33,968 nt of DNA. Origin: Planctomycetota bacterium. Its GTDB lineage: Bacteria > Planctomycetota > Phycisphaerae > UBA1845. Shown in pieces: positions 27,292-33,968 of this stretch. Position 1 is the stretch's first letter, and every line of letters begins with the position of its first letter. The position numbers and the translations under genes are program-made. The notes below the pieces were generated by a model. It ran no database searches and had not been told where the DNA came from. It saw nothing but the letters and a program-made list of their open reading frames with translations. The DNA lies in assembly GCA_024276605.1 (NCBI GenBank), contig JAJRWX010000032.1:1-33968 (forward strand), given 5' to 3'.

Positions 27292-29784
27292 TTATCCCCA
27301 AATGCGCATGGCATCGTTGTAGGTCACGAACAGAAACGTTCCCATAAGTAGGAAGATGCCGATCATCTGTGTGGCTATCTGTACGCGCAGGCTTACCGGG
27401 CTGCCCTTGATCTTTTCAATGATGAGAAAGACCATCAGACCGCCATCCACGATGGGCAGCGGAAGGAAATTGATGACTGCTAAATTGGCGGAAATGATGG
27501 CTAGAAAATAAAGATACGCGACGAGACCGGCACGAGCGATCTGTCCACCGATAGAAACAATACCCAACGGACCGGACATATTGTCCAAATCAACCGTACG
27601 CGAAAAAGCCAGGGCACGGATGGTCTGGTACACCTGTAAAATGAAGTAGTATGTTTTGTGCGCTCCAATTTCGATGGCATCCAGCGCGTTAGTTCCTTTA
27701 AGGAGTACCATTTCCGAGGCGACATTGATATTCGGAGCAAAAGCCACACGCCCCAGCCAAGGATCTACCATGTCCTCTGTGACATCGATGAACTTAGTGA
27801 TTGGTTCGGAAAGTGGGTTGGGCCGGAAGACGACGGGTACATTGGTCTGTCCCACAAGCTCTTTCAAGAGCGTACGCACACCGTCGTGATATCCTATGTG
27901 TACTTCCTCCATGCCCCGTCGTGTCATGGTTTCGACACTACGCTTTCCGTCGATGGATAACAATCTTGCTTCAGGTCCGACGTCCAACAACGTGCGCAGG
28001 CAGTGTGGAATACGGAAATCGACCGTGTGAGACTGCCCGTCGGCAGTTTCATAGGCTAATTCGACGGTCTTGCCCGCCCCCATGCGAAATCGGAAGATCA
28101 GTTGGCGCCAGTCTTTTACCGGTCGACCACTGACCGAGACGATGCGTGCGCCTTTGGGAATACCGGCTTCAGCGGCGGGGCTTGGTTTGCCGTCAATCAA
28201 CTCTTGAATGGCGCCAACGACGATCGAATCATTGGCTACTAAGTTGTATGTGGCGTCGATGGACCCAGGTGACTGTGGGTAGACCGTCGTCCAGATTTTT
28301 TGGCCATCTTTTTTCTCGACAAATAAGGCAAGGCTTTCACCGGCATGCTCTCTCACCTTCTTGCTAAATACACCGATGGAAGGGCGTGCGACACCATCGA
28401 CATTCAAAATGCCGTCTCCAGGCTCCAATCCCGCCTGATCTGCGGCTCCGTATGGTCGTATACTAACGAGTCGCGTTTTCGGTCCATCAGCGGTACGCGC
28501 CTCGGCAGAAATAGCTTCGTAGGTGGCCTGGATGGTGCCGCCTCCACGCTTGTTTTTCTTTGGCCTGATAAATCCTTCCAGGATGCGCTTGCTTGGCTTG
28601 TGTACTTTGAAATGTATGTCTCGCTCAGCGGAGTCTCGAATAGCGCGGGCAATGTCGGTTCTGCCGGGAAATAATACATCGTCCCAACTTAATATGGTGT
28701 CTCCCAATTCGATGCCGGCCAGCGCTGCACGACCGTCCGGGTCTACGGCTCCGATGCGCATCAGTGGTGTTAGTCCTAGAACATTTACGGAATTAGGATC
28801 CTGTACGTCCGTTGGATATAATGCCAACTGTGGAGGAACGTCGATTCGAATTCTTTCAGCTGGTTCATCAGGATGGCCGGGGTTTTTTCGCTCCACAATG
28901 ATCTTGGTGGCATACACGATCATTTCGCGGATTTCGTTTGCGTTTTCATCCGTAGCCTCGATACCGTCAACCTCCACAATCATATCACCGATGCGCGGGC
29001 TAATGGGGTTGCTTTTGTCGACATCTGGGCCAATGGCGACTATTTCGCGCGTAACACCTGGGAGTATACCGATGATCTGTCGTCTAGGTTGTGAGGTGCT
29101 ATCCGGACGCCGATAGTCCGGCGTCACCATCAGATGTTTTTCTTCTCCATTTTCGCGGCGTAGGAGAAAATCGACTGGCTCATGCAGTGGTGCGAGGGTG
29201 ACAGCCATGCTGACACCTTGCCATTCCAGAATGCGCTCACCATTGATTTCCAATACCTGATCGCCGGGGACGATGCCTGCGCGATGGGCGGGGCTATCAG
29301 GTTCTACAAAGCCGACGCGCGTCGCCATGGTGTTCATTCCGATCATAAACACAGCCATAAATAATAGAGCGGCGAATATGATATTCATGATGACGCCGGC
29401 AGAGACAATGGCCATGCGATGCCCGACGGGTTTATTCACAAACGAACGCGGGTCATCATTAAATTTCAACTCTTCGGATTTGTCGTCGAAGTCTTCCTGC
29501 CCGAGCATTTTTACATACCCACCAAGCGGGAGTAAGTTGAATGAGTATCGCGTCTCACCTCGGGTGAATCCGATAAGTTCCTGACCAAAGCCAATGGCGA
29601 ATCGTTCGACTTTCACGCCTGCCCACTTGGCGACGAGAAAGTGTCCCAATTCGTGGACGAACACAATGGCGGAAAATCCAGCCACCATGAGCAGGTAAGG
29701 CCATACGCCTTCCCATATGGATAAGAGCGAAATCTGCATCAGCAGACCATAGGGTTGAATTGTCGTTGTTAGCAAGTCGTGCAT
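27292..29784 (-). CDS. rseP: RIP metalloprotease RseP (M50B) with expanded PDZ region
   Basis: An intramembrane zinc protease that performs site-2 cleavage of anti-sigma factors and clears signal peptide remnants. HELGH is at 44-48 in the first membrane helix, and the second metal site is NFLPLPIVDGG at 772-782, near four helices in total. RseP usually has about 450 residues and two PDZ domains; this one has 830. The periplasmic part shows four clear PDZ-type loops: DSPAHRAGIVPGDQVLEING (~163-182), GRAALAGIELGDTILSWDDV (~351-370), GAADQAGLEPGDGILNVDGV (~446-465) and SPAAEAGIPKGARIVSVSG (~535-553). A weaker fifth is at ~245-300. ATG 29784 has GAGGT six bases upstream and overlaps the end of dxr by 16 bases, so the two are translationally linked, a classic gene pair. 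Confidence 0.95.
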   Translation of the reverse strand: MHDLLTTTIQPYGLLMQISLLSIWEGVWPYLLMVAGFSAIVFVHELGHFLVAKWAGVKVERFAIGFGQELIGFTRGETRYSFNLLPLGGYVKMLGQEDFDDKSEELKFNDDPRSFVNKPVGHRMAIVSAGVIMNIIFAALLFMAVFMIGMNTMATRVGFVEPDSPAHRAGIVPGDQVLEINGERILEWQGVSMAVTLAPLHEPVDFLLRRENGEEKHLMVTPDYRRPDSTSQPRRQIIGILPGVTREIVAIGPDVDKSNPISPRIGDMIVEVDGIEATDENANEIREMIVYATKIIVERKNPGHPDEPAERIRIDVPPQLALYPTDVQDPNSVNVLGLTPLMRIGAVDPDGRAALAGIELGDTILSWDDVLFPGRTDIARAIRDSAERDIHFKVHKPSKRILEGFIRPKKNKRGGGTIQATYEAISAEARTADGPKTRLVSIRPYGAADQAGLEPGDGILNVDGVARPSIGVFSKKVREHAGESLALFVEKKDGQKIWTTVYPQSPGSIDATYNLVANDSIVVGAIQELIDGKPSPAAEAGIPKGARIVSVSGRPVKDWRQLIFRFRMGAGKTVELAYETADGQSHTVDFRIPHCLRTLLDVGPEARLLSIDGKRSVETMTRRGMEEVHIGYHDGVRTLLKELVGQTNVPVVFRPNPLSEPITKFIDVTEDMVDPWLGRVAFAPNINVASEMVLLKGTNALDAIEIGAHKTYYFILQVYQTIRALAFSRTVDLDNMSGPLGIVSIGGQIARAGLVAYLYFLAIISANLAVINFLPLPIVDGGLMVFLIIEKIKGSPVSLRVQIATQMIGIFLLMGTFLFVTYNDAMRIWG

Positions 29785-30920
29785 CGAGTTACCTCAGTCC
29801 GCGCCCAACGATCAGCTTCGAGGATGTCCTGCATGGTAGGATCAGCCACGAAACAGTGGTCTTGAAGCGCTTGCTGTGTGAGTGTTGTGATATCCGTAAA
29901 TCGTATTCGTGCGTCACGAAACAGTTGTACCGCAGCTTCGTTGGCTGCATTGAGTACCGCCCCAGCTGTACCTCCACGATGGGCGACCTCATGCCCTAAC
30001 GCCAGGGCGGGAAAACGCGTTTCGTCCGGAACTTCTAATCGTAGCGTTATAGACGCTGTCAAGTCCAATCGTCGAGCCGGCCCTTTTTTTCGGGCTGGAT
30101 ACGTCAGTGCATATTGTATCGGTGTACGCATGTCCGGTGCCCCTAACTGAGCCATCACCGAGCCGTCACAAAATTCTACCATCGAATGAATGATCGATTC
30201 TGGATGAATAACTACTTCAATTTTGTTGGGGTCCAGATCGAACAGCCAGTGAGCTTCGATAATTTCAAGTGCTTTGTTCATCATGGTAGCTGAATCGATG
30301 GATATTTTCGGCCCCATATCCCATGTGGGGTGAGCTAGAGCATCTTTCAAGCTAGCTTTGGCCATATCTTCTATGGACCAAGTCCGAAAAGGTCCACCTG
30401 AAGCTGTGAGCACTACACGAGTCACTTCTTCGGCTTTGCCGGTATGGAGGGCCTGGAAAATGGCTGAGTGTTCGCTATCGACCGGAATGATGGTCGCCCC
30501 GGTTTCTTTAGCCAAAGGCATCATCAGCGAGCCGGCTATTACAAGTGCCTCTTTATTCGCTAACGCCAGTCGGCGACCCAGTTCAACCGCGCGTAGCGTA
30601 GCGGGCAACCCGTCAGTCCCGACTACCGCACTAATGACACAGTCACAATCCGTTTCGTTGACAAGTTTGTACAAGGCGTGGTTGCCCGTATGGACGTTGG
30701 GGGCGTAGTCAAGGGCATCATGGAGGCTTCGGCCAGCCTCGGTATTCGTAAGGGCAATCGCCTCAGGACGCCAAGCATTAGCCTGTTGGGCCAGTTCCAC
30801 GCTTCGCGAGCCGGCGGCTAGACCTACAACGTCCCACTCTTTGGTCAGCGCAGCCAGGACGTCCAGCGTGTTTTGGCCAATCGAGCCGGTTGATCCGAGT
30901 ATGATGACGCGTTTCTTCAT
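29769..30920 (-). CDS. dxr: 1-deoxy-D-xylulose-5-phosphate reductoisomerase
   Basis: It catalyses the NADPH-dependent committed step of the MEP isoprenoid pathway (DXP to MEP) in the cytoplasm. It has 383 residues, normal length. The nucleotide-binding start is VIILGSTGSIGQNTLDVL (glycine loop 9-15). Further motifs are LALANKEALVIAG, the metal-binding PVDSEHSAIFQAL, SIDSATMMNKALEIIEAHWLF and HPESIIHSMVEF, all as in the family. No Shine-Dalgarno sequence precedes the ATG at 30920. However, a small upstream frame ends in an ATGA overlap with this start, which could provide coupling. The 3' end overlaps rseP. The usual neighbours cdsA, uppS and frr are absent upstream; repeats take their place. 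Confidence 0.96.
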   Translation of the reverse strand: MKKRVIILGSTGSIGQNTLDVLAALTKEWDVVGLAAGSRSVELAQQANAWRPEAIALTNTEAGRSLHDALDYAPNVHTGNHALYKLVNETDCDCVISAVVGTDGLPATLRAVELGRRLALANKEALVIAGSLMMPLAKETGATIIPVDSEHSAIFQALHTGKAEEVTRVVLTASGGPFRTWSIEDMAKASLKDALAHPTWDMGPKISIDSATMMNKALEIIEAHWLFDLDPNKIEVVIHPESIIHSMVEFCDGSVMAQLGAPDMRTPIQYALTYPARKKGPARRLDLTASITLRLEVPDETRFPALALGHEVAHRGGTAGAVLNAANEAAVQLFRDARIRFTDITTLTQQALQDHCFVADPTMQDILEADRWARTEVTRCTTC

Positions 30921-31197: not shown

Positions 31198-31264
31198 GAC
31201 GGATATGCTACTACTGATTTAGGCTATGATTGTCTGTATGTATCGACGGACCTATAATCACACC

Positions 31265-31819
31265 ATGCACGCGGGTTCGGAGTTTAGTCAAAGGTCAGGG
31301 TCTAGTAACGCCAGACAGTTGTGCCGCACGCCGATCTTTTCCGTAGAGCATCGTGAATTTAATGAGCCGGGGCACGCGATGGTCGCACGTGATGTCGTGG
31401 TGCATCCCGGCGCAGTTGTGATTTTACCCGTACTGGCCAACGGCAACATTGTGATGATTCGTAATTATCGCTGGTCCGTTGGGCATCAGCTTTGGGAATT
31501 ACCGGCTGGGACGCGCGAACCGAACGAGTCTCCAGAGCAAACGGCCCGTCGTGAACTTAAAGAGGAAACGGGCTATCGGGCGGGCCGGTTACAGCCGTTG
31601 GCGACATTCTTCACCTCGCCCGGTATTATGACGGAAGAGATGTTGGCTTTTGTAGCTACTGATCTAACACCCTCCAAGCCATCGCTCCAGGGAGATGAAC
31701 GGATTGTGGTCGAGGTGGTAGATGCGGCAGTCTTGCGAGATCGACTGGTAGCGGGCGATTTGCATGACGGCAAAACGATGGCGGCGTTGGGTATATATTT
31801 TTTGAATCAACAATTGTAG
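31265..31819 (+). CDS. Nudix hydrolase (ADP-ribose pyrophosphatase type)
   Basis: The protein has 184 residues from ATG 31265. The Nudix box matches the consensus Gx5Ex7REUxEExGU exactly: GTREPNE, seven residues, RELKEETGY, at about 82-104. The preceding strands (VVVHPGAVVILPVL, NGNIVMIRNYRWSVGHQLWELPAG) and the later TFFTSPGIMTEEMLAFVA resemble ADP-ribose pyrophosphatases of the NudF type, which hydrolyse ADP-ribose to AMP and ribose 5-phosphate; the substrate is inferred. The frame also opens at ATGs 31226 and 31241. None of the three has a strong Shine-Dalgarno sequence, and 31265 was taken because conserved sequence starts soon after it. The stop is 15 bases before the rhomboid gene, so the three genes to 33780 probably form one operon. 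Confidence 0.88.
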   Translation: MHAGSEFSQRSGSSNARQLCRTPIFSVEHREFNEPGHAMVARDVVVHPGAVVILPVLANGNIVMIRNYRWSVGHQLWELPAGTREPNESPEQTARRELKEETGYRAGRLQPLATFFTSPGIMTEEMLAFVATDLTPSKPSLQGDERIVVEVVDAAVLRDRLVAGDLHDGKTMAALGIYFLNQQL

Positions 31820-31834
31820 CAGGAACGTTGCGAT

Positions 31835-32737
31835 ATGGGTTGGCAAGATCGAGATTATGCTGCGTCGCCTCCACGTCGACCGTCTTGGGGCAGTCCAGCG
31901 CCGTTATCCGGCGGTGGGCATAGTATTGTCACGAAGATCATTATTGCCAATGTGATCGTTTATACCGTACCGCGATTGTTCGTTTCGTGGTATGAGCCGG
32001 TTTATGCCTATGGACAACTGCAAGCCGGTCTAGTGATGCGGGGGCAAATCTGGCGTTTGTTTACAGCCATGTACCTACACGCGAGCATGGGGCATATTTT
32101 TGTCAACATGCTTGGTCTTCATTTTCTCGGCAGGCCATTAGAGCGTCTGTGGTCGCCGCGTAAGTTTTTTACGATCTACACGCTATGTGGTCTAGCGGGG
32201 AATATCTTCTTCACAATCCTTGGTGCCAGGGGCATTATTCATCCGATGGCACCTGCGGTGGGGGCATCGGGTAGCATATATGGATTGCTCGGCGTGGTCG
32301 CCGTGATGTTTCCACATGCCACGGTGTACATCTACTTTTTGTTTCCGCTAAAAATTCGCACCGCAGCCTATATCTTCGGCGGTATCGCTATTTTTACCAT
32401 CTTCGAGCGTGGCAGTAACTTCGGCGGAGAAGCTTGTCACTTAGCCGGTTTGGTGCTTGGTGTTTGGTGGGCTATGAAGGGTGAGGCGTGGTGGGCGCGG
32501 ACGCAGTGGCGCATCCCAAGTATGCCATCCCGCCCGCGCGAAAAAAAAAGCGCGAGTTCATTTCAGCGAAAAGTGAAGCAGCGCCATGATGATGCCGACC
32601 TGATCGACGACATACTACGCAAAGTGTACGAAGGTGGTATACACAGTTTGTCTGAGGCTGAGAAACGCCATTTACACGAAGCGTCGCAACGACAGCGCGA
32701 ACGTGAAGCCGGTAGTGGTCGCGTGGATCGATTGTGA
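31835..32737 (+). CDS. Rhomboid family intramembrane serine protease
   Basis: The protein has 300 residues. It has a short cytoplasmic start rich in Pro and Gly, then about six membrane helices. The catalytic dyad is visible: Ser145 in GASGSIYGLLG and His202 in ACHLAGLVLGV. The helix-2 motif MGHIFVNMLGLHFLG and the loop QIWRLFTAMYLHASM are typical. The basic cytoplasmic tail (about 225-300) ends in DDADLIDDILRKVYEGGIHS, then LSEAEKRHLHEASQRQRER. This tail resembles the DUF6576-like extension of rhomboids in Bacteroidota and recurs in the next gene product. It cleaves membrane proteins within or near the lipid bilayer; the substrate is unknown. AGGA lies about 10 bases before the ATG. Its stop overlaps the start of the site-2 protease gene (TGATG). 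Confidence 0.93.
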   Translation: MGWQDRDYAASPPRRPSWGSPAPLSGGGHSIVTKIIIANVIVYTVPRLFVSWYEPVYAYGQLQAGLVMRGQIWRLFTAMYLHASMGHIFVNMLGLHFLGRPLERLWSPRKFFTIYTLCGLAGNIFFTILGARGIIHPMAPAVGASGSIYGLLGVVAVMFPHATVYIYFLFPLKIRTAAYIFGGIAIFTIFERGSNFGGEACHLAGLVLGVWWAMKGEAWWARTQWRIPSMPSRPREKKSASSFQRKVKQRHDDADLIDDILRKVYEGGIHSLSEAEKRHLHEASQRQREREAGSGRVDRL

Positions 32738-33780
32738 TGTTTGGTACCGACAAACCCATGGACAATCCGATCAACTGGTCGTTCAAAGTCGGCCAATTGT
32801 TCTCCATTGATATTCGCGTACACATTTTGTTTGTCCTGTGTGCAGTATTTCTCATAGTGCAGGCATTGCCCGATGCTGATGCCGGCGTTTCGATACCCAT
32901 CAGCAAGGTTTTAATTCAAGCGTTAGGTACCTATGCCATTTTATTTGGCATCGTGCTGCTGCATGAGTTTGGTCATTGCTTTGGATGTCGCCGGGTTGGG
33001 GGTGAAGCGCACGAGATACTCATCTGGCCTTTGGGTGGTTTAGCTTCAGTAGCGCCGCCTCATAATCCAAGTGCGCACATGGTGACAACTGTCGCGGGTC
33101 CGATGGTTAATGTCATCATTTGTGGCTTATGTTCATTGGGTTTGGTCGCTTGGACAGGGCAACTTGGTGCAGTGCCTTGGAATCCTCTCCATCCGTTCAC
33201 GCCTGTATCGCAGGCCATTTTACTAAGCGAAGGACAGTGGTGGCTCTTGCAGGTCTATGGGCTGAGCTATTTCATTTTGTTGATCAATTTGCTGCCGGTG
33301 TTTCCGTTTGATGGGGGGCGGGTATTACAAGCTTGGTTGTGGCCTCGCAAGGGTTATCGTGCGTCGATGGAATTGGCGACAGGTATTGGCATGGGGGGCG
33401 CGATTGTCATCGGATTGTGGGGTATTGTATCCGGAGAAACGCTTTTACTGATGATTGCGGTATTTGGTTATCTCACTTGCTGGCAATCGAAGCGTATGGC
33501 GAAGTATCAAGATGATTTCGGTGGTGGGGGTTTTTCGCCCTATGGTAGTGGTGAAGAATCGTGGGATGTACCTGAACGCAAACCGGGATTTTTTGAACGC
33601 CGCCGAATCCGTAAAGCCAGTCAACAAATAGCCCGTCAGCGTGAACGCATAGCGGCACATGAAAAAGAGGTGGAACGCATACTTGCCAAAGTTTCGCAGT
33701 CCGGTTTGGCCTCGCTGTCACCACGAGAACGCAACGTACTAGAAGAAGAAACCAAACGGCAGCAATCGATTGAGCCGTAA
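32737..33780 (+). CDS. Site-2 protease, M50 family (SpoIVFB-like)
   Basis: The protein has 347 residues from ATG 32737 (GTG 32734 adds one residue). It is an intramembrane zinc protease without a PDZ domain: HEFGH at 76-80 in a membrane helix (LFGIVLLHEFGHCFGCRRVG), the glycine-rich WPLGGLA turn, and the second metal motif NLLPVFPFDGGRVLQAW. About six membrane segments end near residue 250. A cytoplasmic coiled, basic tail follows (FFERRRIRKASQQIARQRER). The last 39 residues (VERILAKVSQSGLASLSPRE, then RNVLEEETKR) align without gaps with the rhomboid tail. The start overlaps the rhomboid stop, so synthesis is coupled. A joint role in regulated intramembrane proteolysis is inferred. Confidence 0.93.
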   Translation: MFGTDKPMDNPINWSFKVGQLFSIDIRVHILFVLCAVFLIVQALPDADAGVSIPISKVLIQALGTYAILFGIVLLHEFGHCFGCRRVGGEAHEILIWPLGGLASVAPPHNPSAHMVTTVAGPMVNVIICGLCSLGLVAWTGQLGAVPWNPLHPFTPVSQAILLSEGQWWLLQVYGLSYFILLINLLPVFPFDGGRVLQAWLWPRKGYRASMELATGIGMGGAIVIGLWGIVSGETLLLMIAVFGYLTCWQSKRMAKYQDDFGGGGFSPYGSGEESWDVPERKPGFFERRRIRKASQQIARQRERIAAHEKEVERILAKVSQSGLASLSPRERNVLEEETKRQQSIEP

Positions 33781-33828: not shown

Positions 33829-33968
33829 TAGTGCTGTGTCACAGCTTATTTTTCGGGTTCATCCAGGGTGGCATGGGCAACGTTTTTTTTGCCCGTGTCG
33901 GCCTCCGGAACTACACGGGTAAGTCCCGATGTATCCCGACTTTACGTCGGGATACATCGGGACTTACC
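33829..33968. mobile_element. MITE-like element, second copy, cut by the window end
   Basis: It starts TAGTGCTGTGTCACAGCT, identical to the reverse complement of the right end of the 6496-6671 element, and runs 140 bases with about 90% identity by eye. The internal stem (CCCGATGTATCCCGAC / GTCGGGATACATCGGG) is perfect here. It lies about 50 bases downstream of the site-2 protease gene, in the opposite orientation to the first copy. Confidence 0.85.

Follow-up and report, generated by a model that had tools for sequence, protein, structure and literature searches.

Why should two intramembrane proteases with unrelated membrane domains, encoded by overlapping genes, end in the same short tail? 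The question is raised by a locus near one end of a 33,968-nucleotide stretch (contig JAJRWX010000032.1, hereafter the window) from a Planctomycetota genome of the Phycisphaerae type, whose family is labelled f1. We write R for rhomboid and S or S2P for site-2 protease, and label families f1, f2 and so on, genomes G and stretches L. The locus comprises the following features:

31226..31819, + strand: NUDIX hydrolase gene ahead of the protease slot (Pfam; start of gene approximate)
31835..32737, + strand: predicted rhomboid intramembrane serine protease with a DUF6576 C-terminal tail, 300 aa (Pfam and Foldseek)
31835..31858, + strand: N-terminal motif MGWQDRDY of the rhomboid, conserved among paired rhomboids and present in some S2Ps
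32267..32269, + strand: rhomboid Ser145 in a GASG motif, predicted catalytic, placed from the translation and invariant in alignment A5
32438-32440, + strand: rhomboid His202, predicted dyad partner of Ser145, placed from the translation and invariant in alignment A5
32582..32692, + strand: rhomboid DUF6576 tail, residues 250-286, within a predicted helical hairpin (H240-267 / H274-293)
32737..33780, + strand: predicted site-2 protease (Peptidase M50) with a DUF6576 C-terminal tail, 347 aa from ATG 32737 or 348 aa from GTG 32734
32962..32976, + strand: S2P zinc-site motif HEFGH (residues 77-81), read from the sequence, with H77, E78 and H81 invariant in alignment A2
33310-33312, + strand: S2P distal Asp193, read from the sequence and invariant in alignment A2
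33652..33750, + strand: S2P DUF6576 tail, residues 307-339 of the 348-aa ORF, within a predicted hairpin (H286-323 / H330-346)

Both protease reading frames adjoin as the first-pass annotation had described them (31835-32737 and 32737-33780). The rhomboid stop codon TGA occupies 32735-32737 and the S2P can begin at the ATG at 32737, giving a one-base overlap (TGATG). The GTG at 32734 is an alternative start; the ATG is where the S2P stretch common to close relatives begins, as MFGTDKP in L033. At 33919-33968, the last bases of the window and of the contig, a long inverted repeat (GTAAGTCCCGATGTATCCCGAC...GTCGGGATACATCGGGACTTAC) was spotted by eye.

The rhomboid scores 91.8 bits against PF01694 in the Pfam scan (cut-off 22.6) and its predicted fold is GlpG-like (Foldseek, 2irv, E 6.7e-7). 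The S2P scores 51.2 bits against Peptidase_M50, PF02163 (cut-off 27.2), and its predicted fold resembles those of the M. jannaschii S2P and SpoIVFB (Foldseek, 3b4r, E 1.4e-11; also 8vjm). These two families and separate fold matches bear out the initial observation that the membrane domains are unrelated. Judged from fold, score and the Ser (GxSG) plus His dyad, the first protein is a predicted rhomboid protease; fold, score, HExxH and the distal Asp (DGG) make the second a predicted site-2 protease. Active-site residues are intact in both (alignments A2 and A5).

The likeness of the two tails is real. They align without gaps, as first noticed, with 13 identities in 32 positions, and when one tail was shuffled 200,000 times the score was never reached, which rules out chance likeness. 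Both tails belong to DUF6576 (PF20216). In the Pfam protein scan the S2P tail scores 29.6 bits (E 7.7e-7, cut-off 27.3) and the rhomboid tail 25.5 bits (E 1.5e-5), slightly below the cut-off; in the genome search the rhomboid tail reaches 29.0 bits, above it. A six-frame search of the whole host genome at E up to 10 returned these two copies, both above the cut-off, and none further. AlphaFold2 models each tail as a long helix followed by a short one, with block pLDDT mostly 80-93 for the tails. Both tails probably lie on the cytoplasmic side, a placement that follows the topology of GlpG and of S2P relatives. Searched by sequence against the Protein Data Bank, the S2P tail found a best E of 0.54, and the SHOCT profile gave no row for either window protein at E up to 10 (filters drop most rows above about 0.1).

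The tail and the gene pair both extend well beyond this genome, and neither of the two conditions that the first-pass annotation named as refuting it (no such motif on S2P homologues, no conservation of the pair) holds. Relatives were collected by scanning for two peptide patterns of the S2P core; ranking the 372 by likeness to the window S2P and retaining the best 80 tilts this sample towards close relatives. The tail is present on 78 of these 80 S2Ps, the other two being cut by contig ends. A partner rhomboid was detected in 59 of the 80 best-ranked loci and is tailed in 58 of the 59; it lies upstream (R->S) in 38 of the 80 loci and downstream (S->R) in 21. In another 21 the stretch contains no rhomboid; in nine of these the S2P lies close to the end of its contig. 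The existence of two gene orders indicates that the neighbourhood was made, or maintained through rearrangement, more than once. Most of these relatives are Phycisphaerae and other Planctomycetota metagenome-assembled genomes, with a few odd names such as Alphaproteobacteria.

Within f1 (36 genomes), both genes occur in 30 genomes and, by our own reading of the gene coordinates, lie less than 2 kb apart in 26 (the exceptions being G009, G021, G026 and G035). Three further f1 genomes have one gene and three have none, the completeness of these six ranging from 63 to 91%; in G025, scored as having none, the rhomboid core is present and the tail stretch consists of unknown bases. The same spacing is found in all three f2 genomes and in none of the six f4 genomes, all six of which hold both tailed genes, yet not adjacent to each other. 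For f3, f6 and f7, each represented by a single genome, and for five of six f5 genomes, the only tailed proteases detected are rhomboids. Taking the window's genome together with 59 relatives, DUF6576 is present in 57 of 60 genomes with 97 matches, all on rhomboid-like or S2P proteins (four of the f4 rhomboid calls are weak, 22-36 bits); a sub-threshold S2P tail in G020 raises the total to 98, made up of 54 rhomboid-like and 44 S2P proteins. Across the phylum it was detected in 227 of 246 sampled genomes, part of these matches having been fetched and classified. Bacteroides ihuae was the sole match at stricter thresholds among 14 named control genomes.

Could the tail be a recent copy from one neighbour to the other? 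Paired R tails show identities of 0.55 and 0.54 to other R tails versus 0.46 and 0.46 to their partner S tails, and recent copying is therefore not supported. In adjacent pairs R tails and S tails each keep type-specific letters (12 of 316 tailed frames, those without a tail by regular expression, are left out of the comparison). For R->S, membership of the same pair brings no extra likeness between the two tails (the observed value is reached in 627 of 5000 shuffles); for S->R, the within-pair likeness is reached in 150 of 5000. The type-specific letters and the lack of excess within-pair likeness in R->S pairs suggest that R and S tails may not bind identically.

The rhomboids share a second element, missed by the first-pass annotation, at the opposite end. 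The motif M[GS]WxDR[DP]Y or a close variant, detected with a loose regular expression, is present on 63 of 64 paired rhomboids (39 of 39 that come first in the pair and 24 of 25 that come second) and on 45 of 63 rhomboids whose stretch shows no tailed partner. The corresponding counts for S2Ps are 9 of 25, 3 of 40 and 10 of 46, so some S2Ps bear both rhomboid-type ends; the window S2P has the tail only. With a simpler pattern, the motif was found on seven of eight S2Ps and seven of eight rhomboids of the related family f8.

The genes also share a position. A NUDIX gene directly precedes the protease gene or genes in 36 of 41 hand-picked stretches, the window included (L062, L154, L158, L303 and L307 have no NUDIX match). 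The slot downstream of it has four contents: R-S (f1, f2, f11), S-R (f9 and others), R alone (f3, f5, f7, f12) and S alone (G051 of f4, G052 of f5). Two f5 genomes, G052 and G055, have the same RseP-Dxr-NUDIX flank, with S in the former and R in the latter; G052 encodes a further tailed rhomboid elsewhere in its genome. In f11, stretch L107 (G257) has two different tailed rhomboids in tandem and L108, from another genome, has a rhomboid followed by an S2P. On the other side of the NUDIX gene in the window, an RseP-type site-2 protease in which the PDZ profile matches repeatedly (PDZ_6 in 5 stretches; 27292-29784, - strand) and Dxr (29769-30920, - strand) lie divergent beside the slot. The same divergent genes adjoin it in stretches of f1, f2, f3, f5 and f7, which brings three intramembrane proteases close together.

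In f8 the content of the slot differs between close relatives. Of the 17 f8 genomes, 16 encode a single DUF6576 copy, on exactly one tailed protease each, a rhomboid in eight and an S2P in eight; G312, at 75% completeness, gave no match. When core alignments without the tail served as queries, the eight S genomes and no others gave S2P cores at 281-380 bits (181 for the next hit), and the eight R genomes and no others gave rhomboid cores at 283-354 bits (85 for the next hit); these searches found no orthologue of the alternative core in any of the 16. The NUDIX gene is ahead of the protease gene in 16 of 16. Between G042 (R) and G046 (S), members of the same genus with matching neighbours on both sides, the DNA is homologous across 6.5 kb of upstream sequence and the NUDIX gene as far as codon 6-7 of the protease gene, and again from the point where the tail begins into the downstream sequence, with 82-91% identity; the cores in between are unrelated. 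A second pair from one genus, G305 (S) and G307 (R), likewise has homologous flanks and tail around unrelated cores. There the left break is at the 3' end of the NUDIX gene, so that the N-terminus differs too. An assembly artefact is unlikely, given that G042, G046 and G305 have the locus on single contigs of 3.9, 4.3 and 5.5 Mb; the G307 assembly has about 350 contigs.

On a species tree built from five sense proteins of the ribosomal operon, the R and S states of f8 require 6 changes, at least 4 of them forced by starred branches. A single clade of S genomes is rejected (p-AU 4.3e-41), and R and S labels are no more clustered than shuffled labels. Another tree, from all conserved ORFs and probably including antisense ones, gives 5 changes with at least 4 forced; we rely on the ribosomal tree. 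Tail identity is 0.60 between proteins with different cores (64 pairs) versus 0.59 between proteins with the same core (56 pairs), and the S2P tail of G053 has its nearest counterparts on rhomboids, those of G315 and G059, next to it on the tree. The f8 tail tracks the species and the site, not the core, and the core is the variable part.

Two histories would fit the f8 cores: loss from an ancestral pair, or allele-like exchange within the family. Under either, one protease suffices and each can be that one. In quick trees the f8 rhomboid cores form one clade (SH-aLRT 95) and the S2P cores nearly so, in a broadly vertical order, and the trees show neither a core arriving from outside f8 nor a close outside donor. 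This pattern would fit an ancestral tandem pair that repeatedly lost one gene, the shared ends being mere recombination homology, the survivors doing different jobs and the exchange carrying no functional meaning; f1 and f2, where R->S still follows the same NUDIX gene, are in keeping with such a pair. Such a history would require 12 independent losses by our own count on the ribosomal-protein tree, against 6 state changes, and among the 16 f8 genomes none keeps both genes and none has lost both. We regard it as unlikely, and repeated loss of either gene with one always kept would itself suggest that one is enough. Our tentative reading, which falls somewhat short of an even chance, is of a single cellular post that either protease can fill, the cores being exchanged in frame like alleles, in the manner of idiomorphs, the tail evolving with its host and partner, and the window lineage keeping both enzymes.

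A two-step cleavage complex had been suggested for the window pair. In one form of it the rhomboid would make the first cut in a substrate and the S2P the second, with the tails joining the enzymes. The overlap of the window genes, the conservation of pairing in two orders, and intact active sites in the window pair and in most tailed proteins checked are all compatible with this proposal. As an obligatory, general mechanism it is not supported: both enzymes are not present wherever the system occurs, 16 of 17 f8 genomes having one tailed core each, and adjacency is dispensable too, the f4 genes not being adjacent. Single-protease genomes are common in some families, and because they occur in several, an obligatory rhomboid-then-S2P relay is unsupported. 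Moreover, the f4 rhomboid has no dyad in five of six genomes. We judge a joint two-step complex very improbable.

The f4 rhomboids are not the only carriers that look inactive. Among 149 deduplicated tailed rhomboid-like proteins, 25 fail the alignment check for the dyad, 22 of them full-length and three truncated pieces; they include L025, L061, L064, L068 and L070 in f4 and L077, L079, L087, L095, L099, L115 and L121 in f35. These may be pseudoproteases retained with their tail. Three of the five f4 pseudo-rhomboids score above the Pfam cut-off for Rhomboid, and L064 and L070 have no Rhomboid row. An active-looking S2P accompanies the dyad-less rhomboid in five of six f4 genomes. HExxH and Asp are kept in 112 of 116 tailed S2Ps, and of the other four one is frame-split and one truncated. 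L085 (G211) and L143 (G236) are tailed S2P-like proteins without HExxH, and each of these genomes also encodes a tailed rhomboid whose serine motif looks intact (L137 and L369). A rule that one partner is always active fails in f35, where the clear rhomboid carriers that were fetched have no dyad and the seven second carriers are not recognisable as proteases (four were scanned with Pfam, and one of them gave Rhomboid at E 0.077).

The tail could also be a generic oligomerisation or stability hairpin with no specific partner. Its predicted form, a helical hairpin, and its occurrence on pseudo-rhomboids as well as a few other proteins would suit such a role; a generic module should, like SHOCT, spread widely, and in the 60 genomes DUF6576 occurs on two protease folds only. 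This explanation seems improbable to us. Profiles assigned 33 further stretches to rhomboid-like proteins (15), S2Ps (9) or neither (9), the last group comprising the seven f35 membrane proteins, one SRP M-domain protein and one protein without a convincing tail. The SRP protein, a non-protease DUF6576 carrier, is encoded in G237 (L372:2078-4426, - strand) and has an SRP_SPB M-domain (E 1.3e-15) followed by DUF6576 (24.6 bits, below the cut-off); its frame adjoins one that resembles full-length Ffh. G058 presents the reverse case, a second rhomboid core whose frame ends before any tail.

What, then, would the tail do? We consider it moderately probable that DUF6576 is a helical-hairpin docking module that assigns a rhomboid or an S2P to one cellular job. 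In this model the small cytoplasmic hairpin would act as a docking or assignment tag that brings an intramembrane protease to one common partner or place, and the catalytic core would supply the intramembrane cut, by serine chemistry in the rhomboid or by zinc in the S2P. The window lineage keeps both cores as an overlapping gene pair behind the NUDIX gene; in the related family f8, either core fills the same slot between the same ends. A shared docking partner had been proposed from the window alone. The part of that proposal concerning the tail stands, this being a real shared domain on genes paired in two orders, and the exchange of cores between kept ends fits the rest; from this we infer the docking partner itself, the functional equivalence of the cores and a common client. 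Weighing against the model are the usual difference in topology between substrates of rhomboids and those of S2Ps, the type-specific letters of the two tails, the carriers that look catalytically inactive and the few that are not recognisable as proteases. If serine and zinc proteases are indeed interchangeable behind the same tail, specificity would reside largely outside the catalytic core, and the common partner could be sought by a pull-down with the 35-residue tail. Sister-species pairs with the same flanks and tail and a different core would offer a natural experiment.

Rhomboids, S2Ps and DUF6576 are all already known. The window rhomboid shares with GlpG-type rhomboids (PF01694) the fold and the Ser-His dyad, and differs from them in the DUF6576 tail, the MGWQDRDY motif and the overlapping S2P gene. 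The window S2P resembles the MjS2P and SpoIVFB type (PF02163) in HExxH, DGG and the fold matches, and differs in its C-terminal DUF6576 hairpin; SpoIVFB has a CBS domain at its C-terminal end. A genetic parallel to the f8 locus is offered by the mating-type idiomorphs of fungi, unrelated sequences that occupy one locus between homologous flanks. They are alike in placing unrelated alternatives in one site, whereas in f8 the flanks include an end of the protein, so that the core changes in frame. Searches of the open-licence literature turned up no paper that mentions DUF6576 and none that brings rhomboid and site-2 protease together with Planctomycetes; titles and abstract openings among the papers listed had nothing on the pairing. 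A term search of a 2025 rhomboid review (PMC12615303) did not return 'site-2', 'operon' or 'planctomyc'.

SHOCT, as described in excerpts of PMC3581485, is likewise a short two-helix C-terminal domain on unrelated proteins; it occurs in 63 architectures, whereas DUF6576 is found here almost exclusively on two membrane-protease folds. Self-association was not supported for the one SHOCT domain tested (PMC3581485). The functions of bacterial rhomboids are described as largely elusive, and YqgP, a bacterial rhomboid, acts as an adaptor of FtsH (excerpts of PMC7231995). That system resembles the window in pairing a bacterial rhomboid with a membrane metalloprotease. It differs in that FtsH is an ATP-dependent protease and not an S2P, and the excerpts of PMC7231995 mention neither a shared tail nor an exchange of cores. 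In Shigella, cleavage by a rhomboid licenses the further degradation of orphan membrane proteins (excerpts of PMC7232013). By analogy with this rhomboid-licensed degradation and with the adaptor role of YqgP, a part in membrane quality control is plausible for the tailed proteases described here.
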